From: Methylococcus mesophilus | Lineage (GTDB): Bacteria > Pseudomonadota > Gammaproteobacteria > Methylococcales > Methylococcaceae | Direction of reading: 5' to 3' | DNA length: 64,000 nucleotides | Assembly (NCBI RefSeq): GCF_026247885.1 | Contig: NZ_CP110921.1 | Span: forward strand, 3,293,501 to 3,357,500 | Part shown: in pieces, positions 44,150 through 61,623 of the stretch | Numbering within the stretch: position 1 is the first letter of the stretch | Layout of the letters: every line of letters starts with the position of its first letter | Notes under the pieces: model-generated | What the model saw: only the letters and a program-made list of their open reading frames with translations | The model's database searches: none | Told to the model about the DNA's origin: nothing | Position numbers and translations under genes: made by a program

Positions 44150-44291
44150 GCTCTCCGTCCATAAGGAAAGTCCCGCGCCTTCCCCGGATCCGCCCACGGC
44201 GGACCGGGGCGGGTGCGGTGCCTGCTGAGCGAGATGACGCAGTGATTGCGGGATATTCCGCAGTTGGTCGCCCCGGCTTTTTCGCCGGTGA

Positions 44292-44340
44292 TTTGTAACA
44301 CGCTGTTTATTAGTATTTTTTAATGATGGTATCGAACTTG
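44292..44340 (+). promoter_or_regulatory. Shared upstream element, surface peroxidase gene
   Basis: TTTGTAA (44292-44298), a 25-base AT-rich spacer, TGAT (44324-44327), GGTATC (44328-44333) and TTGC. It has the same parts and spacing as the element at 40018, except that three bases (ATT) between TGAT and GGTATC are missing. It ends about 15 bases before the start codon, so it could be a promoter or an operator overlapping one. Confidence 0.45.
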
Positions 44341-44354
44341 CCTTAGAGCGAGGC

Positions 44355-46676
44355 ATGTTCAAACTTTTCCGCCATCATCCCATGCGCTCCGGTACTTCGA
44401 GTCTTCTGGCCATCGGGTCGGCAACCCTGCTCACCCTCCTCCTGGCTGCCGCCATCTACCCCCCGGCCGCGTCCGCGCACGGGGCGCTGGTTTTCCCCTT
44501 TTCCCTGAAGAACGTCCAGCCGCCGCCCATTCCGGGCCTCGGCAAGGTCGTGAAGAACGAAAAGGCGCTGCTGGTGCTCGGCAAGGCGCTGTTCTGGGAC
44601 ATGAACGTCGGCAGCGACGGCATGGCCTGTGCGAGCTGCCATTTCCACGCAGGCGCGGACGTACGGACGAAAAACGCGCTGAATCCGGGCGGCAAGCGGC
44701 ATTTGACCGATGCCGGCGGCGATCCCCTGTATCCGGCGCTGGCCGCGGGGTTCAAGCCTACGGCTTCCGGCGGCGCCGGCGGGCCGAATTACGAACTTAC
44801 CGCCGACGATTTCCCCTTCGTCCGCTTCGCCGATCCCAACGACAACGATTCCGGCTTCACGGCGGAAACCGACAATGTCATGTCGTCTTCCGGCACCTAT
44901 GCCGGTGAGTTCAAGGGGGTAAGCAAGACCGGCAATTCCCTCGACGACTGCGACCGCGCCGGGCATGACGGCGTCTATCACGTCGGCGGCACCCGCACCC
45001 GGCAGGTCGAGCCTCGCAACACGCCGACGGTCATCAATGCGGCATTGTTTCACCGCCAGTTCTGGGACGGCCGGGCCAACAGCGTGTTCAATGGCGTCAA
45101 CGGCGACGGGCTCCGCGATACCGGTGCCGGTGTCTGGGTCGTGGTGAACGGCAAGCCGAAGAAAAAGCCGTTCCGGCTGGAGAACTCCTCGCTCGCCTCC
45201 CAGGCCGTGGGGCCGCCGACCAACAACCAGGAGATGTCCTGCAACGGCCGCACTTTCCCGGACGTCGGCCGCAAACTGCTGCAGCGCCGGGCACTGGAGC
45301 GGCAGGCAGTCCACGCCGAAGACGGCGTGCTCGCCGGCTCCCGCTCCGCGCAAGGCCAGGGCCTGGCGCAGACCTACGCAGAGCTGATCAAGAAGGCTTT
45401 CCGCAGCCAGTACTGGTCGGGCAAGGCGCCCCGCAAGAACCGGGCGATCTTCGGTACGCCGGCCGGGTCCTCCGAGCCGTACACCCAGATGGAAGCCAAT
45501 TTCGCTCTGTATTTCGGCGTGGCGGTACAGGCCTACATGCGTACGCTGATTTCCGACCAGGCCCCCGTGGACTCCGGCAAGGTTCAGGTCTGTTTCGACG
45601 GGCAGGAACTGCATCCGGTGGCGGGCTGTCCCAATTCCGACTATCTGATCGATGCCCCGCAGGCCATGACCGCCGCCCAGCTCCGGGGTCTGCAGCATTT
45701 CATCAACGCCCACTGCATCCTCTGCCATACCGGACCGCTGGCATCGACGGCAGCCAGTCCGGAGATCGTGAGGCTGGCGAACGGCAAGGCGGTCAAGGTC
45801 GACCCGAACGGCTACTCCCTGGTGGACCGCACCAACGATCCCCTGGGGAATACGCGGCTGATGGACGCGGGTTTCGTCAACACCGGCGTCACCCATTATT
45901 CGTTCGACCCCGGACTCGGAAACAACAGTGCGAGCAATTCCTCGCAGCCGCTATCGTTTGCCAAGCAGTATCTGGCGGAGCTGGTGGGGAACGGCGGCGG
46001 CGTTTTCGACGAGCTGAAAGTCCGGCCGTGCCTGTTCACTGCGCCGTTCGTGAAGACCTCGAAGTCCGACCCCTACGGCTTCCCGGATGACCAGCTGCAG
46101 CCCGATCCGCTGGGCAGCGAGGGCTGTGTTCTTTCCAAGCTGGCCATGATCCCGACCCAGGCGGCGGCCGCCGCGGAAGCGGCCAAGGCCGAGGCCGGGA
46201 GCAGCAGCCTGCTGCGGGCCGGCGTCCAGGGTACGTTCAAGATTCCCACGCTGCGCAACGTGGAGCTGACGGCGCCGTATTTCCACAACGGCTCCGTTCT
46301 CACCCTGAATCAGGTCATCGACTTCTATATCAGGGTCGGCAACTACGCCAGCCGCGACAAGGTGGTCGAGATGCCCACCTTGAGCGACATCATCGGCAAC
46401 GAGCAAGGTCCGAAGGACGACATCGCCGCCTTCCTCAAGTCCCTGACCGACGAACGGGTGCGGGACGAAGCGGCGCCTTTCGACCACCCGGCGCTCCAGG
46501 TGCCGAACGGCCATGCCGGCGACCATCAGTCCGTCAGCGATGCCGACGGGGACGGTCTGGCCGACGACGAATTTCTGGAAATCCCGGCGGTGGGCAGGAA
46601 AGGCCGCACCGCCCAGGGGCTGGGGCCGATTCAGGCCCTGCAGGGAAGCATCGAGGGATCCAACGGTATGCCTTAA
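44355..46676 (+). CDS. Surface diheme cytochrome c peroxidase-like protein (SACCP/MauG-like)
   Basis: A 773-residue exported protein. A signal peptide (ending ASAHG, about 44) is followed by two c-heme sites, CASCH (about 92-96) and CILCH (about 454-458), in the order of bacterial diheme peroxidases, with a MauG/BCCP-like C-terminal part (TLRNVELTAPYFHNGSV). It is over twice the length of ordinary diheme peroxidases, as is SACCP, the surface-associated peroxidase of M. capsulatus. A small SDADGDGLADDE calcium-like loop lies near the C-terminus. Two MopE-like genes follow, 38 and 1828 bases downstream, as SACCP precedes mopE. Confidence 0.85.
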   Translation: MFKLFRHHPMRSGTSSLLAIGSATLLTLLLAAAIYPPAASAHGALVFPFSLKNVQPPPIPGLGKVVKNEKALLVLGKALFWDMNVGSDGMACASCHFHAGADVRTKNALNPGGKRHLTDAGGDPLYPALAAGFKPTASGGAGGPNYELTADDFPFVRFADPNDNDSGFTAETDNVMSSSGTYAGEFKGVSKTGNSLDDCDRAGHDGVYHVGGTRTRQVEPRNTPTVINAALFHRQFWDGRANSVFNGVNGDGLRDTGAGVWVVVNGKPKKKPFRLENSSLASQAVGPPTNNQEMSCNGRTFPDVGRKLLQRRALERQAVHAEDGVLAGSRSAQGQGLAQTYAELIKKAFRSQYWSGKAPRKNRAIFGTPAGSSEPYTQMEANFALYFGVAVQAYMRTLISDQAPVDSGKVQVCFDGQELHPVAGCPNSDYLIDAPQAMTAAQLRGLQHFINAHCILCHTGPLASTAASPEIVRLANGKAVKVDPNGYSLVDRTNDPLGNTRLMDAGFVNTGVTHYSFDPGLGNNSASNSSQPLSFAKQYLAELVGNGGGVFDELKVRPCLFTAPFVKTSKSDPYGFPDDQLQPDPLGSEGCVLSKLAMIPTQAAAAAEAAKAEAGSSSLLRAGVQGTFKIPTLRNVELTAPYFHNGSVLTLNQVIDFYIRVGNYASRDKVVEMPTLSDIIGNEQGPKDDIAAFLKSLTDERVRDEAAPFDHPALQVPNGHAGDHQSVSDADGDGLADDEFLEIPAVGRKGRTAQGLGPIQALQGSIEGSNGMP

Positions 46677-46714
46677 TACCTCAGGACTATTGCAACACCT
46701 TTAAGAGAGACACC

Positions 46715-48325
46715 ATGAACAAAACGCATCGTTATTCCTTACTGGCCGCCGGCCTCTTTGCGGCCATGCCGCAACTGGCTGCCGCCCACGGCGGCACTCA
46801 CGACGTCACCGCGGTCGCCCACCTGAGCTATTCGGAAGCCTATTCGGAAAAGCTCAAGAAAGGCCAGGAAGTCGGCACCGAACTGCTGGTGCTGGACGGA
46901 CACTTCGAATTCAACGAACACGTCGGCATGGGCGATATCACCCCGGAAACGACCTGGTCGGCCGTCGTACAGGGCCAGACCCTGGCAACGGGTACCCTGG
47001 GCGATGCCACCAAGAAGAAATTCGGCGCCAAGGGCGGCATGGCGGTGATCAACGTGCCCGGCGGCGGCACGCTTAAATTCACCTGGAACGCCAAAGCCAT
47101 CATGCTCAAGCTGAAATGGACCGGCGAGCCGGCCCTGGCGCGGCTTTACAAGGACCAGAACACCAGCATCAATCTGCCGCAATTCCCGGTCGACATCGCG
47201 ATCGGCAGCCTGCACGGCTACTTCAACGTTCCGGTCACCGGCCAGGCGAAGGCCAAGACCAAGAACGGCACCCTGCTGTCCAAGATCGCCTTGAAAGGCA
47301 ATGCGAACTCCGCGGGCCTGGACGCGCTGGACCGGGACGGCGACGGCTCCACGGCCGACGTCGATTGCAACGACTTCGCGCCCACCGTCCATCCGGGTGC
47401 CGCCGAAGCGACGCTGGACGGCGTGGATTCCAACTGCGACGGGCGCGACTCCGCTGTTGCGGAAGTCGTCGAGACGTTCAAGAATCCGGGCACCTATTCC
47501 AGCCCGGTCATCAACTTCAAGATCTCTTCGCCGCCGGGGCCGGGAACGCCCGTCTACGGGCCGCCGCGCAACTTCTCCGGCTACAACAAGAGCTTCGCGC
47601 TGGCGATCGGCAAGACCTCGTACTACGATCCGACCACGGGCATCAAGTGGAACGACGACACCATCACGCCGGTCAGCGACGGCCAGGACATCTGGCGCGG
47701 CTGGACCCATACCGGCAAATGGTCGTTCTTCAACGGCAACGCCGGCGACAAGATCACCCTCAACGTACAGCGTGATGCGCAGGAAGCCACCCTGAGAGGC
47801 GCCCATCCGGGCTTCATCCTGTTCTGGCGGCCCGAGGGCGGTCCGCTGTTCTGGGCCGGCACCCAGGATCTCGACGAAGGCCAGACCGCGCTGCCCGCCG
47901 ACTCCGACACCGTCGTCGGCCACGTGATCGTGCAGCACGCCGACTGGACCGTACAGGGTTTGCCGGCCAAGGCCGACCATACCGCACCCGCGGGCGTGGA
48001 TGCCGAGCTCTATCCGATGAAGACGGACAGCTACACGATGTACTACGTCGATTCCGGTTATGACGCCGACAAGTACGAGGCATCGAAGAAGCTCATCATG
48101 CACCCCACGGCGTTCAAAGGGATGGCCCTGAACGACGGCACCGCCGGGGCGTTCAGCAAGTCCATCACCCTGCCTAAGACGGGCTATTACATGCTGTACG
48201 TCGCCAACGTCCTGGAAGTGGACGACTGGGGCATCGGCGCGGACGGCAAGCTCACCACCACCGGCGAAGTCTGGGAAGTGCCGGCCAAGGGCGCCTGGGT
48301 CAACATCACGATCTCCAAGCCGTAA
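46715..48325 (+). CDS. MopE-like copper-site surface protein (paralog B)
   Basis: A 536-residue exported protein. The signal peptide ends near QLAAA (about 24), followed by HGGTHDV and HLSYSEAYSEKLK. The Asp-rich MopE-type motif is at about 206-247 (DRDGDGSTADVDCND ... DGVDSNCDG). The copper-site pattern is Trp330-x-His332 in GWTHTGKW and His403 in VVGHVIVQH, exactly 71 residues apart. This is the spacing of His132-His203 in MopE, with Trp130. It lies 38 bases after the diheme peroxidase gene, so the two are an operon. Its 3' third is nearly identical to that of paralog C. Confidence 0.84.
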   Translation: MNKTHRYSLLAAGLFAAMPQLAAAHGGTHDVTAVAHLSYSEAYSEKLKKGQEVGTELLVLDGHFEFNEHVGMGDITPETTWSAVVQGQTLATGTLGDATKKKFGAKGGMAVINVPGGGTLKFTWNAKAIMLKLKWTGEPALARLYKDQNTSINLPQFPVDIAIGSLHGYFNVPVTGQAKAKTKNGTLLSKIALKGNANSAGLDALDRDGDGSTADVDCNDFAPTVHPGAAEATLDGVDSNCDGRDSAVAEVVETFKNPGTYSSPVINFKISSPPGPGTPVYGPPRNFSGYNKSFALAIGKTSYYDPTTGIKWNDDTITPVSDGQDIWRGWTHTGKWSFFNGNAGDKITLNVQRDAQEATLRGAHPGFILFWRPEGGPLFWAGTQDLDEGQTALPADSDTVVGHVIVQHADWTVQGLPAKADHTAPAGVDAELYPMKTDSYTMYYVDSGYDADKYEASKKLIMHPTAFKGMALNDGTAGAFSKSITLPKTGYYMLYVANVLEVDDWGIGADGKLTTTGEVWEVPAKGAWVNITISKP

Positions 48326-48504: not shown

Positions 48505-50082
48505 ATGAACAAAACCTGTTGTTACACCGTCTTGGCCGCTGGTCTCGCCGCCGTGTTGCCGCAATGGGCCAACGCCGCCCAGCTCACCTATTCGGAAGCC
48601 TATGCCGAATGGCTCAAAGGCGGCCAGGAAATCGGCACCGAACTGCTGGTCATAAAAGGGCACTTCGACTTCGACGGGCAAATGAGCTTTGCCGATGTGA
48701 GCGCCGCCACCGCTTGGTCAGCCGCTTTACAGGGCAAGACCCTGGTTTCGGGCAGCTTGGGCGACGGCGCCAAGCAAAACTTCGGAGTCAAAAGCGGCAA
48801 ATCGGTCATCGTACTGCCCGGCGGTACGTTGAAGTTCACCTGGAACACCGAGGGGATCGACTTCGTTCTGAGATGGAAAGGCGAGCCGGCGCTGGCCAGC
48901 CAGTACAAGGACCAGACCACCACGATCTCGGCCGCGAGGATTCCCGTCGACATCAGTATCGGCGGCCTGAAAGGCTATTTCGACGTCGCTGCGACGGGGA
49001 AGGCGAAAGCCAAGACGAAGAAGGGTGTGACGCTGTCCAACATCGCCCTGAAAGGCTCGGCGACTTCGGCCGGGCTAAATGCGCTGGACCGGGACGGCGA
49101 CAGCTATCATGCCGACGTGGACTGCAATGACTTCGCGCCCACCGTCCATCCGGGCGCCACCGAAGCGACGCTGGACGGTGTGGACTCCAATTGCGACGGG
49201 CGAGACTCCGGCGTGGCCGAGATGGTGGAAACCTTTGCTTTAAAGGGTACCGGCCGCTCCAGTCCGGTCATCAATTTCACGAATGTTTCCCAGCCTGGGC
49301 CGGGAACGCCGCAGTATGGGCCGTTGCGCGATTTTTCCGGCTATAACAAAAGCTTTTCGGCCCCGGTCGGCAAGACATCGTTCTACGATCCGACCACGGG
49401 CATCAAGTGGAACGACGACACCATTACGCCGGTCAGCGACGGCCAGGACATCTGGCGTGGTTGGACCCACACCGGCAAATGGTCCTACTTCAACGGTGCT
49501 GCGGGCGACAAGATCACCCTCAGCGTCCAGCGGGACGCATCGGAAGCCAGCCTGAGAGGCGCCCATCCGGGCTTCATCCTGTTCTGGCGGCCCGAGGGCG
49601 GTCCTCTGACCTGGGCAGGCACTCAGGACATCGCCGAAGGGCAGACGATGCCAGCAAACTCCGACATTGTCCCCGCTCATACCCTGATTCAGCATGCCGA
49701 CTGGACCATCCAGGGTTTGCCGGCCAAGGCCGACCATACCGCACCCGCGGGCGTGGATGCCGAGCTCTATCCGATGAAGACGGACAGCTACACGATGTAC
49801 TACGTCGATTCCGGTTATGACGCCGACAAGTACGAGGCATCGAAGAAGCTCATCATGCACCCCACGGCGTTCAAAGGGATGGTCCTGAACGACGGCACCG
49901 CCGGGGCGTTCAGCAAGTCCATCACCCTGCCTAAGACGGGCTATTACATGCTGTACGTCGCCAACGTCCTGGAAGTGGACGACTGGGGCATCGGCGCCGA
50001 CGGCAAGCTCACCACCAGCGGCGACGTCTGGGAATTGCCTGCCAAGGGCGCCTGGATCAACATCACGATCTCCAAGCCGTAA
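48505..50082 (+). CDS. MopE-like copper-site surface protein (paralog C)
   Basis: A 525-residue exported protein: signal peptide ending ANA (about 24), then AQLTYSEAYAEWLK. The Asp-rich motif is at about 196-237. The copper-site pattern is Trp320-x-His322 (GWTHTGKW) and His392 (VPAHTLIQH), 70 residues apart. About 300 bases before its 3' end match paralog B with one difference, while the 5' third is much more divergent, which suggests gene conversion. It is 179 bases downstream of paralog B. Confidence 0.84.
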   Translation: MNKTCCYTVLAAGLAAVLPQWANAAQLTYSEAYAEWLKGGQEIGTELLVIKGHFDFDGQMSFADVSAATAWSAALQGKTLVSGSLGDGAKQNFGVKSGKSVIVLPGGTLKFTWNTEGIDFVLRWKGEPALASQYKDQTTTISAARIPVDISIGGLKGYFDVAATGKAKAKTKKGVTLSNIALKGSATSAGLNALDRDGDSYHADVDCNDFAPTVHPGATEATLDGVDSNCDGRDSGVAEMVETFALKGTGRSSPVINFTNVSQPGPGTPQYGPLRDFSGYNKSFSAPVGKTSFYDPTTGIKWNDDTITPVSDGQDIWRGWTHTGKWSYFNGAAGDKITLSVQRDASEASLRGAHPGFILFWRPEGGPLTWAGTQDIAEGQTMPANSDIVPAHTLIQHADWTIQGLPAKADHTAPAGVDAELYPMKTDSYTMYYVDSGYDADKYEASKKLIMHPTAFKGMVLNDGTAGAFSKSITLPKTGYYMLYVANVLEVDDWGIGADGKLTTSGDVWELPAKGAWINITISKP

Positions 50083-50294: not shown

Positions 50295-50414
50295 GCCTGA
50301 GGCGTGTTGAAGGCGCAAAGATACAATCGGCGTACAAATCTCCTGCGATCGGACACATTTGGAATACAGCCAGATGTTTTACTAAGCCCGTTTCTAACGG
50401 CTGTGGAGATAATC

Positions 50415-51323
50415 ATGAGTTTACTAGGAAACTTATATGCTGCGCTTCCCTTTCACGGAGTAAAACGCCCAGTATTTATCCTTGGTTTCGGACCTTCGGG
50501 CGCGACGATCCTCGGTACTTCATTATCAAGTCATCCGGATGTCGCCTATTTGAACGAGCCCAGGGCCTTATGGGTTTCCGCGTATCCGGAAGTCGATATC
50601 TGGTCATCCAAAGCTCCGTCTCGCGGCGGAAAGCTCGTCCTCGATGCCGCAGATGCCGTATATGCCAAAAGCAAGAAGCTAAGCCGATTGTTACGGATCG
50701 AAGCCATCAAACGCGGAGGCTCGGTTCTCATCGAAAAAAACCCGGCCAATAATTTTCGCCTCGCATTCATCCGTCATATTTTTCCTGACGCTAGATTCAT
50801 CCATATCTATAGAAATGGCCTCGAAGTCGCCACATCGATTGCAAAAATGATCGAGATAGGCGGCTGGCATGGGGAGGATGCTTACAAATGGGACAAGCTG
50901 GCCGAATATGCAATGCGCTTCGACGAGACGCGCCATCTGCCCGGCTTATGTTCAACGCCGTATGAAAAAGGGTTGCTGGAGTGGAGGCTGAGCACCGAAG
51001 CGGCGGTCCGCTTTCTGCGCAGCCTGCCGGAGAATAGTTTCTTCGAGCTTAATTATGACGAGTTCATCGATCGGCCGTTCAATATATTTTCGAGGCTGAC
51101 CGAGTTTATCGGAATAGATGCCGATCCTAATATGGCGAGTTTTCTTGCAAAACGCCTGATTCGAAGAGCGCCCAAGCCGGGATATTGCAACGTATCGGAA
51201 AAAGACGAGCTTATCGGCGGGCCGCTGTTGCCCCTGTCGATGGACGGTAATGGCGGGTTGACGAGGCGTTATGTCCCGAACGCGTTTCCCGCGAACTTGG
51301 CCGGCGTACTGCGGGCGGCTTGA
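50415..51323 (+). CDS. Sulfotransferase family protein
   Basis: A 302-residue P-loop sulfotransferase. The 5'-phosphosulfate loop is GFGPSGATILGTSLSSHP (about 22-39) and the 3'-phosphate motif is FIHIYRNGLEVATS. The acceptor is unknown; surface polysaccharide sulfation is typical. GGAG lies seven bases before the ATG. Base composition is clearly less GC-rich than in neighbouring genes and it contains many A/T-ending codons, which suggests recent acquisition. Confidence 0.82.
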   Translation: MSLLGNLYAALPFHGVKRPVFILGFGPSGATILGTSLSSHPDVAYLNEPRALWVSAYPEVDIWSSKAPSRGGKLVLDAADAVYAKSKKLSRLLRIEAIKRGGSVLIEKNPANNFRLAFIRHIFPDARFIHIYRNGLEVATSIAKMIEIGGWHGEDAYKWDKLAEYAMRFDETRHLPGLCSTPYEKGLLEWRLSTEAAVRFLRSLPENSFFELNYDEFIDRPFNIFSRLTEFIGIDADPNMASFLAKRLIRRAPKPGYCNVSEKDELIGGPLLPLSMDGNGGLTRRYVPNAFPANLAGVLRAA

Positions 51324-51359: not shown

Positions 51360-51387
51360 AGCTGCCGCCGATATATCGGCGACAGCT
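51360..51387. repeat. 28-base near-perfect palindrome
   Basis: AGCTGCCGCCGATA and TATCGGCGACAGCT are inverse complements with one mismatch and no loop. It lies 36 bases after the sulfotransferase stop and 5 bases before the terminal CRISPR repeat. It might be a terminator without a U-tract or a protein-binding site. Confidence 0.5.
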
Positions 51388-51392
51388 GTTGT

Positions 51393-51481
51393 GCGCACTG
51401 TTCCCTATGCGGCAGTGAAGCCCGCGCCATGATATTCCGGCCGAGGAACTACCTTTCTGAGCTGCCTATGGGGCAGTGAAG
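51393..51481 (-). CRISPR. Remnant type I-F CRISPR array: two repeats, one spacer
   Basis: Read on the minus strand, bases 51481-51454 form a 28-base repeat of the subtype I-F type (TTCACTGCC, ATAGGCAGCT, AGAAA). A 33-base spacer (51453-51421) follows, then a second 28-base repeat (51420-51393) that keeps TTCACTGCCGCATAGG but loses the other half, which is typical of the last repeat of an array. The repeat is joined directly to a 5' fragment of cas1. No further repeats or cas genes are in the window. Confidence 0.8.
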
Positions 51482-51482
51482 C

Positions 51483-51569
51483 CAGCACCCGGCAATGCTC
51501 GAGGTAATAAAGATTGGCGCGCTTGGAATGGAGGATGGTCTTGAGATCGGATGGGGAGGTGTAGTCCAT
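51483..51569 (-). pseudogene. cas1: 5' fragment of cas1 (type I-F)
   Basis: Twenty-nine codons starting at ATG 51569: MDYTSPSDLKTILHSKR, then ANLYYLEHCRVL. This is the highly conserved N-terminus of subtype I-F Cas1, which continues VNGGRVEYVT in intact proteins. Here the frame leaves Cas1 at codon 30 and reads through the CRISPR repeat and spacer to a stop at 51405. CAGGAG remains in place before the ATG. It is a deletion scar; no Cas1 function can remain. Confidence 0.8.
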
Positions 51570-51604: not shown

Positions 51605-52597
51605 CTATTCCGGATACTTGTCGAGCCGGAACAGCCAATCCTGTTCCTGTTGCGTCCGCTCCCGCTGCTCGATGGGTGGAAGCCAAGTGGTCCGGGCGCT
51701 TTCCGTGATTTTTTCCCGCAGCCAGCGGTGGGCCGGGTCCGATTGCGCCGAGCGGTGCCAGATCATGTAGATGGGAACCCGTTCGATCTGCCAGGGGACG
51801 GGATAGCACTGGATGCCGAACTGGTCTTGGAAAGTGTGGGCGAGCCGCTGCGACGTAAAGGCCAGCAGTTCGGTTTGCGCAACGGCCAGCAGCAGGATCA
51901 TGACGTTCGGCACCTGGAGCGAGATCCGTTCGTTGACCCGGTCGAACCAGGTTTCCTGTTCGGGAATGACGCTCAGGCTGGGGTAGTGTCCGTTGACTGC
52001 GACGAAATGCTCCCGCAGCGCCTGCTCCGGGGTGAACGAGTCGCCGATGCGGGGGTGGTCCCGCCGCGCGATGATGACCATCTGGTGCTGGTAGACCAGA
52101 TCGTGAGCCAGGCTGGGGTCGGCGAACCGGTTGTAGTGCACCAGAACGTCCAGGCTGCGGTCGCGCAGTTTGCCGATCGCCTCTTTTTCGGAGTCGAGTG
52201 AGTGGACCGACAGGCGGGCATTCGGCGCTTCGCTGTGGATAGCCTGGTACAGCGCCGTGCTCATCAGGGAGCCGCCGCCATAGACCATGGACACCGAAAA
52301 ATGCCGATAGCTTTCGGCAGGGTCGAATGCGTCGTCGGCGGACAGGCCGGTCCGGATCAGATTGAGGGCCTGGTGTGTCCGGTCGTAAAGCTCGTCCGCA
52401 CATGGCGTCGGTTGCAGCCCCAGGTTTTTCCTCGCCACAAAGAGCGGGTCTTGCGTTACCAGCTTGAGCCGCCGCAGGGCGTTGCTGATGGCGGGCTGGG
52501 TCATGCGCAGGCGCTCCGCCGCCTTGAGCTGGCTGCGCTCTTCATAGACCGCTTCGAATACCGTCAACAGGTTCAGATCCGTGCCGCGCAGGTTCAT
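51605..52597 (-). CDS. LysR-family regulator, LeuO-like (1)
   Basis: A 330-residue transcriptional regulator. The N-terminal winged helix (MNLRGTDLNLLTVFEAVYEE ... RMTQPAISNALRRLK) is of the LeuO/NodD branch. The effector domain runs from about 95 to 300, followed by a Gln/Arg-rich tail. It is a close paralog of the next gene upstream (same strand, 46-base gap), differing mainly after residue 95 and in the tail. Confidence 0.87.
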   Translation of the reverse strand: MNLRGTDLNLLTVFEAVYEERSQLKAAERLRMTQPAISNALRRLKLVTQDPLFVARKNLGLQPTPCADELYDRTHQALNLIRTGLSADDAFDPAESYRHFSVSMVYGGGSLMSTALYQAIHSEAPNARLSVHSLDSEKEAIGKLRDRSLDVLVHYNRFADPSLAHDLVYQHQMVIIARRDHPRIGDSFTPEQALREHFVAVNGHYPSLSVIPEQETWFDRVNERISLQVPNVMILLLAVAQTELLAFTSQRLAHTFQDQFGIQCYPVPWQIERVPIYMIWHRSAQSDPAHRWLREKITESARTTWLPPIEQRERTQQEQDWLFRLDKYPE

Positions 52598-52643: not shown

Positions 52644-53573
52644 TCATGCGCTCGACCCGGCGGGCCGATCCCGGATCCTCCGTACGCATTCTTTGAGCTT
52701 TTCCCGGAACCACCGGTGTGCCGGGTCCTCTTGAGCGGAACGGTGCCAGATCATGTACATGGGTACGGGCTCGTTCTGCCAAGGGACTGGGTAGCGCTTG
52801 ATGTCGAACCGCTTGCCGAAGGTATCGGCAAAGTGCCGGGAGGTGAACGCCAGCAGATCGGTCTGCGCGACCATCACCAGCGATACCATGACGCTCGGAA
52901 CCTGAAGAGCGATTCTTTCGCCGACGCGGTCGAACCATGCTTCCCGCCGCATGCCCGGGAAGTGGCCTTCCACTATGGCGAAATGCTCTTGCAGCGCTTG
53001 TTCCGGCGTCAGCGACTCGCCCAGACGCGGGTGGTCACGGCGCGCGATGACGACCAACTGATGCTGGTCGATCAGTTCGTGCGCCAGGCGGGGATCGGAA
53101 AATTTGTTGTAGTGCACGAGGATGTCGAGGCTGCGGTCGCGCAGCCTCGCTATCGCTTCTTTCTCGGATTCGATCGCATGGATAGACAAGCGGGTTTTCG
53201 GCGCATCCCGCCCGAGAGCGTGGTACAGGGGCGGGCCGATCACCGATCCGTCGCCGTGGATGATGGACAGCGAAAACTGCCGCCGGCTTTCGGCAGGGTC
53301 GAATTCATGGTCGTGGGCCAGACTGGTCCTGACAAGCTCGAGCGCATGATGGATCTGCTCGTAGATTTCGTCCGCGCGCGGCGTCGGCTGCAGCCCGACG
53401 TTTTTCCTCGCCAGAAACAGGGGGTCTTGTGCCACTAGCTTGAGGCGGCGCAGGGCGTTGCTGATGGCCGGCTGGGTCATGCACAGGCGCTCCGCTGCCT
53501 TGAGCTGGCTGCGCTCTTCATAGACCGATTCGAATACCGTCAACAGGTTCAGGTCCGTGCCGCGTAGATTCAT
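52644..53573 (-). CDS. LysR-family regulator, LeuO-like (2)
   Basis: A 309-residue paralog of the neighbouring regulator, with MNLRGTDLNLLTVFESVYEE and CMTQPAISNALRRLKL in the DNA-binding domain and a LysR effector domain behind it. The start is divergent from the LPMO-chitinase gene, with 219 bases between the start codons, so it is a candidate regulator of that gene. The duplication is in tandem. No effector can be named. Confidence 0.87.
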   Translation of the reverse strand: MNLRGTDLNLLTVFESVYEERSQLKAAERLCMTQPAISNALRRLKLVAQDPLFLARKNVGLQPTPRADEIYEQIHHALELVRTSLAHDHEFDPAESRRQFSLSIIHGDGSVIGPPLYHALGRDAPKTRLSIHAIESEKEAIARLRDRSLDILVHYNKFSDPRLAHELIDQHQLVVIARRDHPRLGESLTPEQALQEHFAIVEGHFPGMRREAWFDRVGERIALQVPSVMVSLVMVAQTDLLAFTSRHFADTFGKRFDIKRYPVPWQNEPVPMYMIWHRSAQEDPAHRWFREKLKECVRRIRDRPAGSSA

Positions 53574-53792
53574 GAGGTGAATGGCTCCGTTTACAAAATC
53601 GCAATTGGACGAACTATCAGGCGCGAACTAAACATTTACAGTCAGCAAGGCGCCCGTTCGCGGTTTCTCATCTCCGCACTCACGGGAGCGGGGCGCCTGG
53701 CTGGCAAGGCAAAGCGGCGCATCAGGCACCGAGGGACTTCGCCGGTACCCGTTCGCTTTCCTCTTCAGTTCGACGTTCACAGGAGTACGTCC

Positions 53793-56531
53793 ATGAAAAT
53801 GAAAAAATTGAGCTTGATCTGTCAAGCGTTGATCGGTACCGGCCTGGCCGTGGCTGCTACCGATGAGGGTTATGCGCACGGTTCGATGGAGGTTCCGCCC
53901 AGCCGGATCTACAACTGTTATCGGAGCAACCCGGAGAATCCGACCTCGGCTGCCTGCGCGGCCGCCAAAGCGGAGTCGGGTACGCAGCAGTTCTACGATT
54001 GGAACGGTGTGCGCCAGGGCAGCGCCAATAGTCAACATCGACAAGTCATTCCGGACGGACAGCTTTGCAGCGGCGGCGGTTCGGAATTCGCCGGTATGGA
54101 CTTGGCGCGTTCCGACTGGGAAACGACCACCATCGCTCCCAATGCCGACGGCCAGTACCAATTCGTCTATTACGCCACGGCTCCGCATGCCACCAAGTAT
54201 TTCGATTTCTACGTGACCAAAGACGGCTACGATCCGAGTCAGCCTCTGGCCTGGGACGATCTGGAAGCGGCGCCGTTTTGTTCGGTCAAGTCCGTGACGC
54301 TGAAAAACGGCCGCTACAACATGACCTGCCCCTTGCCGCAAGGCAAGAATGGGAAGCATGTGATCTACGTGATCTGGCAGCGCAGCGACAGTGGGGAAGC
54401 GTTCTACGCCTGCACCGACGTCGTGTTTTCCGCCGGCGGGACGCCCACAAACACACCTACGCCCGCGCCGACTCCCGGCGCCACCGCTGCGCCCAGCCCG
54501 ACGCCGGCGCCCACCGCCGCGCCCTCGGCTGCGGCGCCCGACGGCACCTGGGTCGGCGGCTATTATCCGAGCTGGTCGTACTGGCGGGTGCATTCCGGCT
54601 TCATGGCCAATGCCGACAACCGGTCGCTCTCCGGCTTGAGATCGGGCAGGGGCACTTTCAAGATCGTCTCGGCGAGCGCGGCCAAGCCCCAGTACGTCAC
54701 CTATGCCTTCCTGACGATCAAGACCAGCAGGAACAGCAACGCGGACGTCAGCTACGGCGGTTCCGCGATCAACTACCAGGGGGCCGCGAACGGCGCGGTG
54801 GTCGACGTCGACGAGCTGGTCGAAGCGGATGTTGCCGCCAAGAACTACGCCTATCTGCAGGACTACGTGGCCCAGACCGGCGCCATCCCCGTGGCCTCGG
54901 TCGGCGGCTGGAGCTACACCCAGCGCTTCACAGATTTCTATCAAGACTGGACTGCCAATCCGCAGGTGCTGGACACCTTCGTCACCAGCGCCGCGGCCTG
55001 GATGAAGAACCACGGCTTCAAGGGCCTCAGCATCGACTGGGAATATCCCGGTTTCGGCCACAACGGCAGCCAGGACCAGGGCAAACACCAGGGTGAGGGC
55101 GCTTTCTTCAACACCTTGATCGCCCGTCTCGGCGCCAAGCTGGCAGAGCTGTCGCAGCAGGACAGCGTACATTATTACCTGTCCGTGGCGACTTCGGTGA
55201 ATCCGTACATCGCGGCGGGGGATAATGGTTCGATCGATTGGAAGACGGTTGCGCAGCAGGTCGACTGGATCGATCTGATGGCGCTCGACATCAACGGCGA
55301 ATTCAACGCGGGCGCACCGTCTGACCAGGCGGTCGCGGCTTCCCAGGCGCCGCTGGACTACATCCAGAAAGCGCTGGATTTCTACATCACCCAGTCGGGC
55401 GTGCCGTCCAGGAAGATCGTCCTGGGCGTGCCGGCCTACGCGCGGCAGATGCTGGTGCAGGATCAGCCGGCTTCGGCCAACCAGTTCGGCTACGGCGGGT
55501 TTATGAAATATCCGGGGATCGACGGCATATTCAACACCTTCGAGAGCAATTACTACGCTGCCGGGGCCAAGTACAGCCAGGCGTTCACGGATTCGCCCAA
55601 TCCGGAGGCCTATTATCCGGCCGGCGGCGCAGTGGATTTCACTGGGGTCTATCCGTATTCGTGCTTCACCAAGCTGTTGAATCCGGGCGCCACCGTAGCG
55701 GCGGATTGCCCGATGATGCTGAACGCGACGCCCAATGGGATCGACAACCGCGGCCAGGGCGGCCAGGAACTGCCGTCGGACATCAAGGCGACCCAGGTCG
55801 GCGTCTACGACTGGCTGTACAGCCAGAGCCAGAGCGTAGTCCAGAACTTCTACGGCGGCAGCGGCTATTACCCGGCCTACCCCGTCTTCTCGCTGGAATC
55901 CAAACGCTCGCTGGATACCAAGATCGACCAATTGGTGAGGCCGTACAACCTGGGCGGGGTGTGGTTCTGGGACTATACCCAGGACTCCGTGAACGATCCG
56001 AGCATGTCTCTGGTGGTCGAGGCGTACAACAAGCTGCGCTCGTCGGCTCCGAGCCCGACGCCCGCGCCGACGGCGACGCCGAGCCCGACAGCCAGCCCAA
56101 GCCCGGCCCCGACCGTCACGCCGACTCCAGCGCCGACAGCGACGCCGAAGCCGACCGCCAGCCCGACGCCTGCGCCGACCCCGAACTATCCGAAATATGT
56201 CGATGGCAAGGCATACGCGGTGGGAGCCAAGGTCGTCGCGATCGACGGCAACGTCTACCAGTGCAAGATCGCGGGCTGGTGCAGCACCGGCGGCTGGGCC
56301 TACGCGCCGTTCGCGGGAACCTACTGGAGTTCCGCCTGGACGAAGCTCACGACCAACGGCACGCCCGATCTGACGGCCGCCCAGCCGTATCAGAACGGCG
56401 TCGGGTACAAGGCGGGCGATATGGTCAAGGTTGGGAGCCAGGTGTATTACTGCAAGCAGCCCGGCTGGTGCGGCCAGGCGGCGTATGCGCCGGGTTCGAG
56501 CAATGGCCCGATGGCCTGGGGAAAGTTCTGA
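53793..56531 (+). CDS. Secreted AA10 LPMO-GH18 chitinase fusion with two chitin-binding modules
   Basis: A 912-residue exported protein. The signal peptide (1-28) leaves His29 as mature N-terminus (HGSMEVPPSRIYNCY); with His132 in APHATKYFDF this makes the copper histidine brace of AA10 LPMOs. A Pro/Thr linker (about 223-257) leads to a GH18 barrel (about 259-745) with LSIDWEYP: catalytic Glu417 and Asp415 are kept, but the Asp two before is Ser413 and the first Asp is Lys410. A second linker (about 751-798) precedes two CBM5/12-like modules (about 799-850 and 862-912). AGGAG lies before the ATG at 53793. The protein should oxidise and hydrolyse chitin outside the cell. Confidence 0.88.
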   Translation: MKMKKLSLICQALIGTGLAVAATDEGYAHGSMEVPPSRIYNCYRSNPENPTSAACAAAKAESGTQQFYDWNGVRQGSANSQHRQVIPDGQLCSGGGSEFAGMDLARSDWETTTIAPNADGQYQFVYYATAPHATKYFDFYVTKDGYDPSQPLAWDDLEAAPFCSVKSVTLKNGRYNMTCPLPQGKNGKHVIYVIWQRSDSGEAFYACTDVVFSAGGTPTNTPTPAPTPGATAAPSPTPAPTAAPSAAAPDGTWVGGYYPSWSYWRVHSGFMANADNRSLSGLRSGRGTFKIVSASAAKPQYVTYAFLTIKTSRNSNADVSYGGSAINYQGAANGAVVDVDELVEADVAAKNYAYLQDYVAQTGAIPVASVGGWSYTQRFTDFYQDWTANPQVLDTFVTSAAAWMKNHGFKGLSIDWEYPGFGHNGSQDQGKHQGEGAFFNTLIARLGAKLAELSQQDSVHYYLSVATSVNPYIAAGDNGSIDWKTVAQQVDWIDLMALDINGEFNAGAPSDQAVAASQAPLDYIQKALDFYITQSGVPSRKIVLGVPAYARQMLVQDQPASANQFGYGGFMKYPGIDGIFNTFESNYYAAGAKYSQAFTDSPNPEAYYPAGGAVDFTGVYPYSCFTKLLNPGATVAADCPMMLNATPNGIDNRGQGGQELPSDIKATQVGVYDWLYSQSQSVVQNFYGGSGYYPAYPVFSLESKRSLDTKIDQLVRPYNLGGVWFWDYTQDSVNDPSMSLVVEAYNKLRSSAPSPTPAPTATPSPTASPSPAPTVTPTPAPTATPKPTASPTPAPTPNYPKYVDGKAYAVGAKVVAIDGNVYQCKIAGWCSTGGWAYAPFAGTYWSSAWTKLTTNGTPDLTAAQPYQNGVGYKAGDMVKVGSQVYYCKQPGWCGQAAYAPGSSNGPMAWGKF

Positions 56532-56575: not shown

Positions 56576-56606
56576 ATCCCCGCCGCTATGCGGCGGGGAT
56601 TTCTTA
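56576..56606 (+). terminator. Terminator between chitinase and lpxD
   Basis: Stem ATCCCCGCCGC / GCGGCGGGGAT (56576-56586 and 56590-56600, 3-base loop), then TTCTTATTT. It stops the chitinase transcript and lies next to the stop codon of convergent lpxD, so it may act both ways. Confidence 0.75.
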
Positions 56607-57668
56607 TTTGGCGGAACCGAGCTCGGCGACGGCTTTTTCCAACTTCTTCAGCCGGGTCCAGATTTCGTGCAGGCGCGGCATCACCGCCATGTTCTTGAGG
56701 TATTGCTGCAAGGGCTGGGCGGGGCCGCCGGCGTACATGCCGGGTTGCTTGATGCTGGTGTTGAGGCCGGCGCGGTGCAGCAGCACGCTGTCGTCGGCGA
56801 CCGTGATGTGGTCGATCGTGCCGGTCTGGCCGGTGGCGATGACGCGCTTGCCGAAACGGGTGGAGCCGGACAGCCCGGTATGGGCACAGAGGATGCAGTC
56901 TTCCCCGATCTCGACGTTGTGGCCGAGGTGCACCAGTGCGTCGATGATGGTGCCGCTGCGGACGCGGGTCGCGCCGTAGGTGCCGCGGTCGATGGTGGTG
57001 TTGGCCCCGATCACCACGCGGTCTTCGATGACGACCTTGCCGGTGTGCGGAATGCGGTAGTTGCGGCGCTGGGCGTCCTGGGCGAAGCCGAAGCCTTCCG
57101 AGCCGATGACGCACCCTGGCTTGAGGATGCAGTTGGCGCCGATTTCACAGTCGATGCAGACGGTGACGCCGGGATGCAGCACGGTTTCCGCGCCGATGCG
57201 GGCGCCGCGCTCGATCACCGCGTTGGCCATCAGCACCACGCCCCGGCCCAGGACGACATCGGCTCCGATCACCACGCCCGGACCGATGATGGCATCGTCG
57301 GGTACTTCCACGCTGTCGTGGATCACGGAAGAAGGATGGATGCGCGGCCATTCGGTGTCGCGCACGTCGCGGTCGGCGTAGGCCTGTTTGATCAGCGCGA
57401 TGGCGAGGCGGACGTTGGGCGCGACCAGTACGGCCAGTGCCGGCGATTCGCCGAATTCGGCGGCGATGGCCGGCGTCGCGATGACGGCTGCCGGCTTGCG
57501 TTCGAGTACGTCGCCGACGTATTTGGGCTTGTCGATGAACACCAGGTCGCCGGAGGCACAGTCCTCGATCGGCGCGACCTGGGTAATGACGGCATCGGGG
57601 CCGAGCCGGTTCGCGATCAGCCCTTCCGGCTGGAAGCGTTCGAAGATTTCCGAAACGGTGACGTGCAT
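56604..57668 (-). CDS. lpxD: UDP-3-O-acylglucosamine N-acyltransferase LpxD
   Basis: A 354-residue lipid A biosynthesis enzyme. The N-terminal uridine-binding domain (about 1-100) precedes many left-handed beta-helix hexapeptides (VVIGADVVLGRGV, TVLHPGVTV, IGSEGFGFAQD) and a C-terminal helix (RLHEIWTRLKKLEKAVAEL). The catalytic His lies in LVHLGHNVEIG. It is not next to bamA, fabZ or lpxA, the usual lpxD locus, so this may be a second copy or relocated. It is the last gene of the trp block strand. Confidence 0.9.
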   Translation of the reverse strand: MHVTVSEIFERFQPEGLIANRLGPDAVITQVAPIEDCASGDLVFIDKPKYVGDVLERKPAAVIATPAIAAEFGESPALAVLVAPNVRLAIALIKQAYADRDVRDTEWPRIHPSSVIHDSVEVPDDAIIGPGVVIGADVVLGRGVVLMANAVIERGARIGAETVLHPGVTVCIDCEIGANCILKPGCVIGSEGFGFAQDAQRRNYRIPHTGKVVIEDRVVIGANTTIDRGTYGATRVRSGTIIDALVHLGHNVEIGEDCILCAHTGLSGSTRFGKRVIATGQTGTIDHITVADDSVLLHRAGLNTSIKQPGMYAGGPAQPLQQYLKNMAVMPRLHEIWTRLKKLEKAVAELGSAK

Positions 57669-57713
57669 GGTGAGTCCTCTTCGATGGCCGGAATGATTCG
57701 GGGTGAGTGCCGC

Positions 57714-58514
57714 CTAGGCGGCGAACAGCCGCTGCAGTTCGACGCCGGGCTCGGGGGCGCGCATGAAGGCCTCGCCGACCAGGAAGGCGTGCACCCCGTG
57801 TTGCCGCATCAAGGCGACGTCCGGCGGCGCCAGGATGCCGCTTTCGGTGACCACGGTGCGGCCTTCAGGGATCAGCGCCAGCAGGTCCAGGGTGGTCTGT
57901 AGGCTGACGTCGAAGCTGCGCAGGTTGCGGTTGTTGATGCCGACCAGGGGCAGCTCCAGCGGCAGCGATCGTTCCAGTTCGGTACGGTCGTGCACTTCCA
58001 CCAGCACGTCCATGCCGAGCGAGGTGGCGAGCTGGGCCAGATCGCGCATCTGCGCATCGTCCAGCGCGGCGGCGATGAGCAGGATGCAGTCCGCGCCGAT
58101 CGCCCGCGCCTCGTAGACCTGGTAAGGGTCGACGGTGAAGTCCTTGCGCAGCACCGGCAGGGCGCAGGCGGCGCGGGCCTGCTGCAGATAGTCCTCGCAG
58201 CCCTGGAAGAAGTCCCGGTCGGTCAGCACCGACAAGCAGGCTGCGCCGCCCGCGGCATAGCTGCGGGCGATCGCTGCCGGCTGGAAATCCTCCCGGATCA
58301 CGCCCTTGCTGGGCGAGGCCTTCTTGATTTCGGCGATCACCCCGGCCTGGCCGGCTTCGATCTTGGCCCGGAGGGAGCGGACTAAGCCGCGCACCGGATC
58401 GGCCTGTTCGGCCTTTGCGCGCATTTCGGACAGCGGCAGCGCCTTCGTTCGGTCGGCGATCTCCTCGGCCTTGCGCGCCAGGATCTTTTTCAGGATGTCG
58501 GGGGTGTCGCTCAT
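57714..58514 (-). CDS. trpC: Indole-3-glycerol phosphate synthase
   Basis: A 266-residue TIM-barrel enzyme of tryptophan synthesis. Visible motifs are [15 protein letters not shown] (catalytic Lys), [47 protein letters not shown], and [11 protein letters not shown]. It follows trpD with a 5-base gap, so it is in the operon. It is a monofunctional TrpC, with no TrpF fusion. Confidence 0.95.
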
Positions 58515-58519
58515 GGCGT

Positions 58520-59545
58520 TCAGCTTGCGGCGAATTGGCGGGAAAGGGCGGCCAGCGCTTCAAGCTTGGCGCGGGCCGAGCCGTCGGCGATAACGGCCTC
58601 GGCACGGCGGATGCCGGCTTCCAGCGAATCGGTCACGTCGGCGGCATAGATGGCGGCGCCGGCGTTCAGGGCGACGATGTCGCGGGCGGGGCCCGGCATG
58701 TTGTCCAGCACGCCCCGCATCATCTTCAGGCTGGCGGCGACGGTGTCGATGGCGAGTTCGCTCAAAGCGGCGCGCCTGAAGCCGAACTGCTCCGGCTGTA
58801 CGTAATAGTTGGTGATCAGGCCGTTTTTCAGCTCGGCGACATGGGTGGGTGCGGCGATGCTGATCTCGTCCAGCCCGTCCTCGGCATGCACGACCAGGAC
58901 GTGTGAGCTGCCCAATTGCTGCAGCACCCGGGCGAGGCCTTCCACCCATTGGTCGGTGTACACGCCGACCAGCTGGTTCGGCGCGCCGGCGGGATTGGTC
59001 AAAGGGCCGAGCAGGTTGAACAGGGTGCGGACGCCGAGTTCCCGGCGTGGTCCGATGGCGTACTTCATAGCGCCGTGGTGGCGCTGGGCGAACAGGAAGC
59101 CGACCCCCAAGGTTTCGATGCAGGTCTTGACCTGATCCGGGGTGAGTTCGAGGTTGATGCCGGCGGCCTCCAGCACGTCGGCGCTGCCCGAGCGGCCGGA
59201 CACCGAGCGGCTGCCGTGCTTGGCGACCCGTCCGCCCGCCGCCGCGACCACGAAGGCCGCGGTGGTGGAGATGTTGAAGGTCTTGCTGGCATCCCCCCCG
59301 GTGCCGCAGGTGTCGAGCAGATGGGGGCCCGATACCGGCACCTTGGTCGCCATTTCCCGCAGCACCTGGGCCGCGGCGGCCACCTCGTCGACGGTCTCGC
59401 CCTTGCAGCGCAGGGCGATCAGGAAGGCGCCGATCTGGGCCGGCGTGGCGCCGCCGCTCATGATCCTGCGCATGGCGGCGCGCATCGCGCTGGGACTCAA
59501 GTCCTTGCCGGCCAGCAGGGTTTCCAGGATTTCGGGGATTTCCAT
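58520..59545 (-). CDS. trpD: Anthranilate phosphoribosyltransferase
   Basis: A 341-residue enzyme transferring phosphoribosyl to anthranilate. It has the PRPP loop [53 protein letters not shown] and [17 protein letters not shown]. It lies 6 bases after trpG and 5 before trpC. Confidence 0.96.
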
Positions 59546-59551
59546 GGGCTG

Positions 59552-60139
59552 TTACCGGTGCAGAAAGTTGCGGAGCAGGTCGTGGCCCTGCTCGGTCATG
59601 ATCGATTCGGGATGGAACTGTACGCCTTCGACGTCCAGGGTCTTGTGGCGCACGCCCATGATTTCCTCGATGCCGCCATCCTCGTCCTCGGTCCAGGCCG
59701 TGACTTCCAGGCACTCGGGCAGGTTGGATTGCTCGATCACCAGCGAATGGTAGCGGGTGGCCTGGAACGGATTGCTCAGGCCGTGGAACACGCCGACGTC
59801 GCGGTGGCGCACCATCGACACCTTGCCGTGCATGATGCGCTTGGCGTGGATGATGTTGCCGCCGAAGGCGTGGCCGATGCTCTGGTGGCCGAGGCAGACG
59901 CCGAGGAGGGGATAGCGTCCGGCGTAGCGGTGGATCGTCTCCACCGAGATGCCGGCTTCCTTCGGCGTGCAGGGGCCGGGCGAAATCACGATCTTGTCCG
60001 GGGCTATGCGCTCGATCTCCTCCACCGCGATCTGGTCGTTCCGAACCACCTGGACGTCCGCGCCCAGCTCGGCCAGATACTGCACCAGGTTGTAGGTGAA
60101 GGAGTCGTAGTTGTCGATCATCAGGACGCGGGTGCTCAT
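59552..60139 (-). CDS. trpG: Anthranilate synthase glutamine amidotransferase component
   Basis: A 195-residue class I amidotransferase that supplies ammonia to TrpE, and probably also to PabB. The nucleophile Cys lies in [10 protein letters not shown]; the His-Glu pair lies in [13 protein letters not shown]. The start at 60139 ([18 protein letters not shown]) overlaps the trpE stop as ATGA. Confidence 0.95.
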
Positions 60140-61623
60140 ACGTTCTCGCCTCCTTCGATCCCGGCTTCGGCCATGGCGACCGCTCGGAAAATGGCCCGGC
60201 CCTTGTTCATCGTTTCCTCCCATTCGCTGCGCGGCACCGAGTCGTAGACGATGCCGGCGCCGGCCTGGATGTGGAGCTGGCCGTCCTTGATGACGGCGGT
60301 GCGGATGGCGATCGCCGTGTCCATGTTGCCGGACCAGCCGATATAGCCCACCGCGCCGGAATAGACCCCGCGCTTCACCGGTTCCAGCTCGGCAATGATC
60401 TCCATGGCGCGGATCTTCGGCGCGCCGCTGACGGTGCCGGCGGGGAAGGTCGCCGCCAGCACGTCGTAGGCGTCCTTGCCGGCCTGGAGCTTGCCGGTCA
60501 CGTTGGAGACGATGTGCATGACGTGGGAATAGCGCTCCACGATCATCTTGTCGGTGAGCCGCACGCTGCCGGTCTCGGAAATGCGGCCGGCGTCGTTGCG
60601 GCCCAGGTCGATCAGCATCAGATGCTCGGCGATTTCCTTGGGATCGGCCAGGAGTTCCTGCTCCAGCGCCTGATCCTCTTCCGGGCTGCGGCCGCGGCGG
60701 CGGGTGCCGGCGATAGGGCGCACCGTGACCGTGCCGTCCTCCAGCCGCACCAGGATTTCCGGCGACGAGCCGACCACGTGGAAATCCCCCAGGTTGAGCT
60801 GGTACATGTAGGGCGAGGGGTTGAGGCAGCGCAGGGCGCGGTACAGGTCCAAGGGAGATGCGGCATAGGGAATGCTTAGCCGCTGCGACAGCACCACCTG
60901 CATCACATCGCCCTCGACGATGTAGTCCTTGACCCGCCGCACCGCGTTCTCGAAGCCTTCCTGGGTGAAGCCGGAGATGAAGTCGGTTTCGTCCACCGTG
61001 CGCGGCGCCCGCGGCGTTGCGGCGAGAACCTGGCGGCAGCGCAGTTCCCGGACCAGTTCGTCCAGCCGGGCCTGGGCCTTGGCGTAGGCGCCGGCCTGGT
61101 TCGGGTCGGCATGGACGATGACCAGCAGCTTGCCGGTGAGGTTGTCGAAAACCAGCACTTCTTCCGACACCATCAGCAGGATGTCGGGCGAGCCGATCGG
61201 GTCGGGTTTGGCGGCGGCGAGGCGCGGCTCGATGTAGCCCATCGTCTCGTAGCCGAAATAGCCGACCAGGCCCCCGGTGAAACGCGGCAGGCCCTCGATG
61301 TCCGGTACCTTGAAACGGGCGCCGTAGGCCTTGATCCATTCCAGCGGATTGTCCGCCGTCAGGGTTTCGCCACGCGCGCCGTCCTGCAGGAGGGCGATCG
61401 AGTGTCCGCGCACCTCGATGCGGGTCCGGCAGGGCAGGCCGATGATGGAATAGCGGCCCCATTGCTCGCCGCCGTGGACGGACTCGAACAGATAGGAATA
61501 AGGCCCGTCTGCGAGCTTGAGATAGGCGCTCAAGGGGGTGTCCAGATCGGCGAGCACGCGCCGCGCCAGCGGGACGCGGTTGTAGCCTTGCGCGGCATGA
61601 GCCTGGAATTGTTCGGGGGTCAT
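60136..61623 (-). CDS. trpE: Anthranilate synthase component I
   Basis: A 495-residue chorismate-using enzyme that starts tryptophan synthesis. The C-terminal chorismate domain has [63 protein letters not shown], shown here as separate short motifs ([22 protein letters not shown]). The N-terminal Trp-feedback segment (LLFESVHGG-like: [18 protein letters not shown]) is kept. The 116-base gap to gph (61624-61739) could hold a promoter. Confidence 0.95.

Follow-up and report, generated by a model that had tools for sequence, protein, structure and literature searches.

A cas1 stub fused to the end of a repeat array: a probable deletion scar of a type I-F CRISPR-Cas locus in Methylococcus mesophilus

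CRISPR-Cas systems are distributed patchily among related bacteria, and as a rule it is from their absence that a loss is deduced. From E. coli and Salmonella, type I-F arrays are described that stand as orphans, with no cas genes; these arrays hold spacers against I-F cas genes, and self-targeting of cas followed by deletion of the cas genes has been proposed for them (PMC3630108). An array remaining after cas loss is also known from the genus Methylococcus itself; there the subtype is another one and, in the excerpted account, no cas stub is described. The word cas1 is absent from the main text of a study of nine Methylococcus genomes published in 2026 (PMC12924245), and among the papers that a literature search listed with the beginnings of their abstracts, none was seen to report a fusion of cas1 with an array. 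Here we describe a site in a stretch of 64,000 nucleotides of the Methylococcus mesophilus genome, the whole of which we call the window. Like the orphan arrays of E. coli and Salmonella, the site keeps I-F repeats without I-F cas genes, but it differs from them in that a cas1 stub is fused to a repeat and in that its spacer has no match in the cas operons of two sister genomes, G011 and G013; with the known case in the genus it shares an array that has outlasted cas. It resembles the type I-F loci of G013 and G011 in the N-terminus of Cas1f, in the 28-nt repeat, in order and orientation, and in its slot, recognised by both flanks in G013 and by the cas1 side in G011, whereas M. mesophilus is without everything between cas1 codon 30 and the last repeats.

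The features of the site are collected in Table 1. Read along the minus strand from the ATG at 51569-51567, which has AGGAG upstream, the order is the 29 codons translating as MDYTSPSDLKTILHSKRANLYYLEHCRVL, one base that still belongs to the stub (51482-51569), CTTCACTGCCCCATAGGCAGCTCAGAAA, the spacer, CTTCACTGCCGCATAGG, and then unrelated sequence. A preliminary description, made from the letters alone, had placed an ATG with CAGGAG upstream at this point and had read the 29 codons behind it as the N-terminus of Cas1f; its coordinates were right, and the alignments agree with its reading. The stub matched the NCBIfam model TIGR03637 (cas1_YPEST) over residues 12-30 with an E-value of 5.6e-6 and 26 bits, a shortfall from the whole-protein cut-off of 150 bits that is expected for a stub. 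In a phmmer search of the PDB it matched four distinct sequences, all of them Cas1, over residues 1-31, the best being 9p11_F (E 8.9e-11) and 3god_A (E 9.1e-11), and a Pfam search of the fused 54-residue frame returned no Cas1 match. A database search with 261 bases around the site gave two plasmid matches and no phage match; one of the two lies under a gene annotated as cas1f on a plasmid of Vitreoscilla, with 84.3% DNA identity to the stub over 70 bases. The fused frame, previously counted as 55 codons, has 54 and a stop.

Table 1. Coordinates of the scar and of its neighbouring genes in the window
Feature	Position	Strand	Remarks
cas1f stub, type I-F	51482..51569	minus	first 29 codons and one base (88 nt); Cas1f matches
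junction of cas1 (codon 29/30) and first repeat base	51481..51482	minus	homology to G011 cas1 up to GTGCTGG; next base is repeat
fused open frame	51405..51569	minus	54 codons and stop; stub, repeat, spacer and half repeat
type I-F CRISPR repeat 1	51454..51481	minus	28 nt; agrees with the repeat of G011 and G013 in 27/28 bases
spacer	51421..51453	minus	33 nt
partial or terminal repeat 2	51393..51420	minus	first 17 nt (51404-51420) exact, 17/17; remainder 3/11
lpxD	56604..57668	minus	outer flank common to the G011 and G013 I-F loci, where cas1 directly follows lpxD
CorA/MopE-like copper-binding protein gene	46715..48325	plus	outer flank common with the G013 array end, not with G011
sulfotransferase	50304..51323	plus	51.7% G+C vs 63.9% in the window; start as mechanically listed
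LysR-family regulator	51605..52597	minus	best NCBIfam models BsrA and LeuO, neither reaching its cut-off; 35 nt upstream of the stub ATG
second tandem LysR-family regulator	52644..53573	minus	likewise BsrA/LeuO-like, below the cut-offs

The repeat of the G011 and G013 arrays is CTTCACTGCCGCATAGGCAGCTCAGAAA, and comparison with it bore out the 28-base I-F type repeat of the preliminary description, the single difference of repeat 1 falling within the predicted hairpin loop. The repeat core TTCACTGCCNNATAGG has exactly two exact matches in 4.34 Mb, both in the scar, and the reversed control had none; two further places in the genome match the core with one mismatch and were rejected as repeats, no full repeat with up to 8 mismatches being present there. 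Confirmed at 33 bases, the spacer has the length of 7 of the 181 sister spacers that lie between clear repeats (32 nt in 173 cases, 31 nt in one and 34 nt in none) and fits the type I-F length of about 32 nt; in G013 the spacing from the last full repeat to the decayed terminal repeat, one case outside the 181, would be 34 nt. That repeat 2 is degenerate in one half holds, while the added remark that terminal repeats are so has a mixed answer, since array ends vary among relatives: G030 keeps the first 8 bases, G013 is decayed mainly in the 5' part and G019 has none.

The search for an origin of the spacer found no target. With blastn, nothing beyond chance level turned up in phages and plasmids (best E 0.9 and 0.7), exact parts of 22, 18 and 18 bases had no match in viral_contigs, and the 32-base form matched itself only, both with up to 3 mismatches in the six genus genomes and with up to 9 mismatches in a set of loci that included the G011 and G013 cas operons. 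The RNA of repeat, spacer and half repeat folded no better than its shuffles (z 0.02), with the hairpin of repeat 1 present in the predicted structure, and Rfam at gathering scores had no match across the window. A functional mini-array or a regulatory crRNA was considered and is unlikely, given this folding result and given that neither Csy4 nor Csy3 was found in the genome. The short stretch from the half repeat to the sulfotransferase gene contains a palindrome (51360-51387) with 15-base arms that are 93% complementary.

The M. mesophilus genome consists of one contig of 4,343,116 bases and is given as 100% complete. In profile searches of it the stub was the only Cas1f match, so that residues 1-29 remain and a complete Cas1f is absent, and Csy3 and Csy4 were not found. 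The G011 operon, used as a DNA query, matched the stub and two short places only, one of 86 bases at 78% (3262255; on the operon side between csy1 and cas2-3) and a weak one of 52 bases (3765979, E 7.9e-4; on the operon side in cas2-3). The preliminary description had the rest of cas1, cas2-3, the csy genes and most spacers removed; the cas1 part stands with the lone stub, and the csy part does so for csy3 and csy4, Cas3f, Csy1 and Csy2 having been covered by the DNA query alone. Other Cas1 matches in the genome are at C1:654578 and, weaker, at 655549. The Cas1 at 654578 passes the general model TIGR00287, and among the subtype models I-G, I-C and I-D are best, all below their cut-offs; with a Cas1 of this other kind, the cell may possess other CRISPR immunity.

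Intact I-F loci were looked for in 38 family genomes, the M. mesophilus genome included. Some match to the Cas1f model was present in 21 of them, and in 8 it was above the cut-off. Within the genus set of six (M. mesophilus and G010-G014), G011 and G013 were above the cut-off for Cas1f, the only matches of G010 were weak ones to a different Cas1, and neither G012 nor G014 had any, G014 being 87% complete in about 210 contigs. The same two of the six were above the cut-off for Csy3, so that I-F genes are present in two of the five other genomes of the genus, and in both Cas1f, Csy3, Cas3f, Csy1, Csy2 and Csy4 all passed. Their loci run cas1, cas2-3, csy1-4, array, with 122 distinct spacers readable in the fetched G011 stretch and 59 in that of G013. 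Inside the G013 array (L021 1033-3895) and after the last G011 repeat (L041) there are genes that we take to be transposase-like. A RelE-type toxin gene sits inside the G013 operon between cas2-3 and csy1 (L021 11451-11846). The stub shares 71 of its 88 bases with cas1 of G011 and likewise 71 with that of G013, which share 73 with each other; codon differences, synonymous plus non-synonymous, are 10+4 between window and G011, 12+4 between window and G013, and 10+4 between G011 and G013. Because the stub differs from the intact genes as much as those differ from each other, it is without visible decay and the loss looks recent, as judged on only 29 codons of sequence.

The slot itself was followed through its flanking genes. 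On the cas1 side, window positions 56620-59817 align with G013 and 56620-60314 with G011, both at 95%, and at the G013 array end window positions 44234-48325 align at 92%, so that G013 has both outer neighbours, the lpxD/trp side and the CorA/MopE-like gene. G011 shares the slot on the cas1 side only: its array side had no match above 150 bases to the window flank in the fetched 962000-1037000 of the contig, array repeats aside, and four stretches between 962000 and 1035500 (L110, L116-L118) had no match to the window. In G010 and G012 both flanks adjoin without I-F genes, and no I-F repeat was found in the fetched 19 kb. The corresponding interval of the window also holds a chitinase/LPMO gene, the two LysR genes, the sulfotransferase gene and a second CorA/MopE-like gene. 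G014 shares this arrangement in part, and both of its contigs end inside the interval. The scar does lie between a sulfotransferase of lower G+C and LysR genes, as first described. An intact locus between these same two neighbours was not found in any strain examined, and the tandem LysR pair had no match in G011 or G013 at E 1e-40. A complete I-F locus at the same position in relatives is therefore borne out by both outer flanks in G013 and by the cas1 side in G011, while the immediate flanks differ.

Some features of the interval deserve mention in their own right. LeuO activates cas genes in enterics. The CorA/MopE-like copper-binding genes stand in tandem (46715-48325 and 48505-50082), a third stretch, related to them at about 70%, lies near 38407-39812, and G010 and G012 have a single copy at this place. 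In this probable methanotroph, a long frame at 53577-56531 combines an LPMO10 domain with a GH18 chitinase domain.

The stub, the repeats, the failure to find Csy3 and Csy4 in the genome and the complete loci of two sisters point to a deletion scar of a type I-F locus, as the preliminary description had proposed. We put at about 0.84 the probability that the M. mesophilus lineage once had a complete I-F locus of which a deletion left the stub and the last repeats. The ancestor would have carried cas1, cas2-3, csy1-4, leader and array in the slot flanked by lpxD and the CorA/MopE-like gene, the arrangement that G013 retains. One end of the deletion would lie at cas1 codon 29/30 and the other at the 5' edge of a repeat among the last, leader-distal ones; lost with it would be the remainder of cas1, every other cas gene, the leader and each recognisable spacer except the last. 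The corresponding cas1 codon of G013 is about 16.7 kb away from the terminal repeat, a distance that includes the transposase-like genes within the array. The array-side breakpoint is exactly on a repeat boundary. The scar is most simply explained by a deletion that took the cas operon together with almost the whole array, and illegitimate or microhomology-mediated deletion would be its most likely mechanism, the ancestral spacer that could show microhomology having been lost with it. Since Cas6f for transcript processing, Cascade, the integrase and the leader would all be gone, the remnant should be inert. The one event, the inertness and the mechanism are what we infer. In an unrooted tree of lpxD the pairs are G010 and G012 (support 0.965), M. 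mesophilus and G013 (0.89), and G011 and G014 (0.955), and a gain before the split of M. mesophilus, G013, G011 and G014, followed by loss, fits this tree of one gene. Counting against the deletion are the array side of G011, unmatched to the window flank, and the transposase-like frame after its last repeat. Also against it, the LysR, chitinase and sulfotransferase genes are absent from beside the intact loci of the sisters, so that several rearrangements have passed through the interval.

Two or more events may have made the scar, the array end first being cut within a repeat, for example on arrival of the low-G+C sulfotransferase segment, and the cas operon with the rest of the array going in a separate deletion. 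We regard this as a possible but rather unlikely variant of the deletion reading, with which it is not mutually exclusive. After 17 exact nt repeat 2 breaks off abruptly, and the half repeat may itself mark a second breakpoint; the base composition of the sulfotransferase gene and the transposase-like genes at both sister arrays are in keeping with it, although terminal repeats can decay naturally, as in G030, whose last repeat keeps its first 8 bases only, and a transposase gene at the scar was not recognised. That a fragment of a foreign I-F locus was inserted into a lineage that never had a working system seems improbable: the immediate neighbours do differ from the sister loci and G011 shares one outer flank only, but slot, order and orientation are those of the complete G013 locus, and the repeat is the same.

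The array-side precision of the cut raises the thought of a locus that deleted itself, akin to what has been proposed for the orphan I-F arrays (PMC3630108): a spacer acquired from its own cas1 would have targeted that gene or recombined with it, and the scar would be the footprint. Recombination between cas1 and such a spacer, the 3' end of which met the surviving repeat, would make the last 32-34 bases before the repeat the spacer, and the cas1 side does end exactly at the repeat boundary, to which by simple arithmetic an endpoint placed at random would come within 0-2 bases in about 3/60 of cases. The PAM of type I-F is 5'-CC. At spacer lengths of 31, 32, 33 and 35 the motif is absent (AT, AA, CA and GC), and it is present only at 34, a length with no instance among the 181 sister spacers and perhaps one before the decayed terminal repeat of G013; we hold this origin, as a recombination and as a self-deletion alike, to be very improbable. 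An assembly artefact in the form of a collapsed array might be thought of, arrays being repetitive, and is more improbable still, since the junction is not repeat-to-repeat, and searches of the genome, one contig given as 100% complete, turned up neither csy3 nor csy4 nor the remainder of cas1.

Read as the trace of a deletion, the scar adds one more clean case to a kind of loss that is already known; it is not a new system. The genus shows three states at one site, complete in G013 (and in G011 by one flank), a scar in M. mesophilus and no trace in G010 and G012, and with these three states around one site the breakpoint can be read directly.
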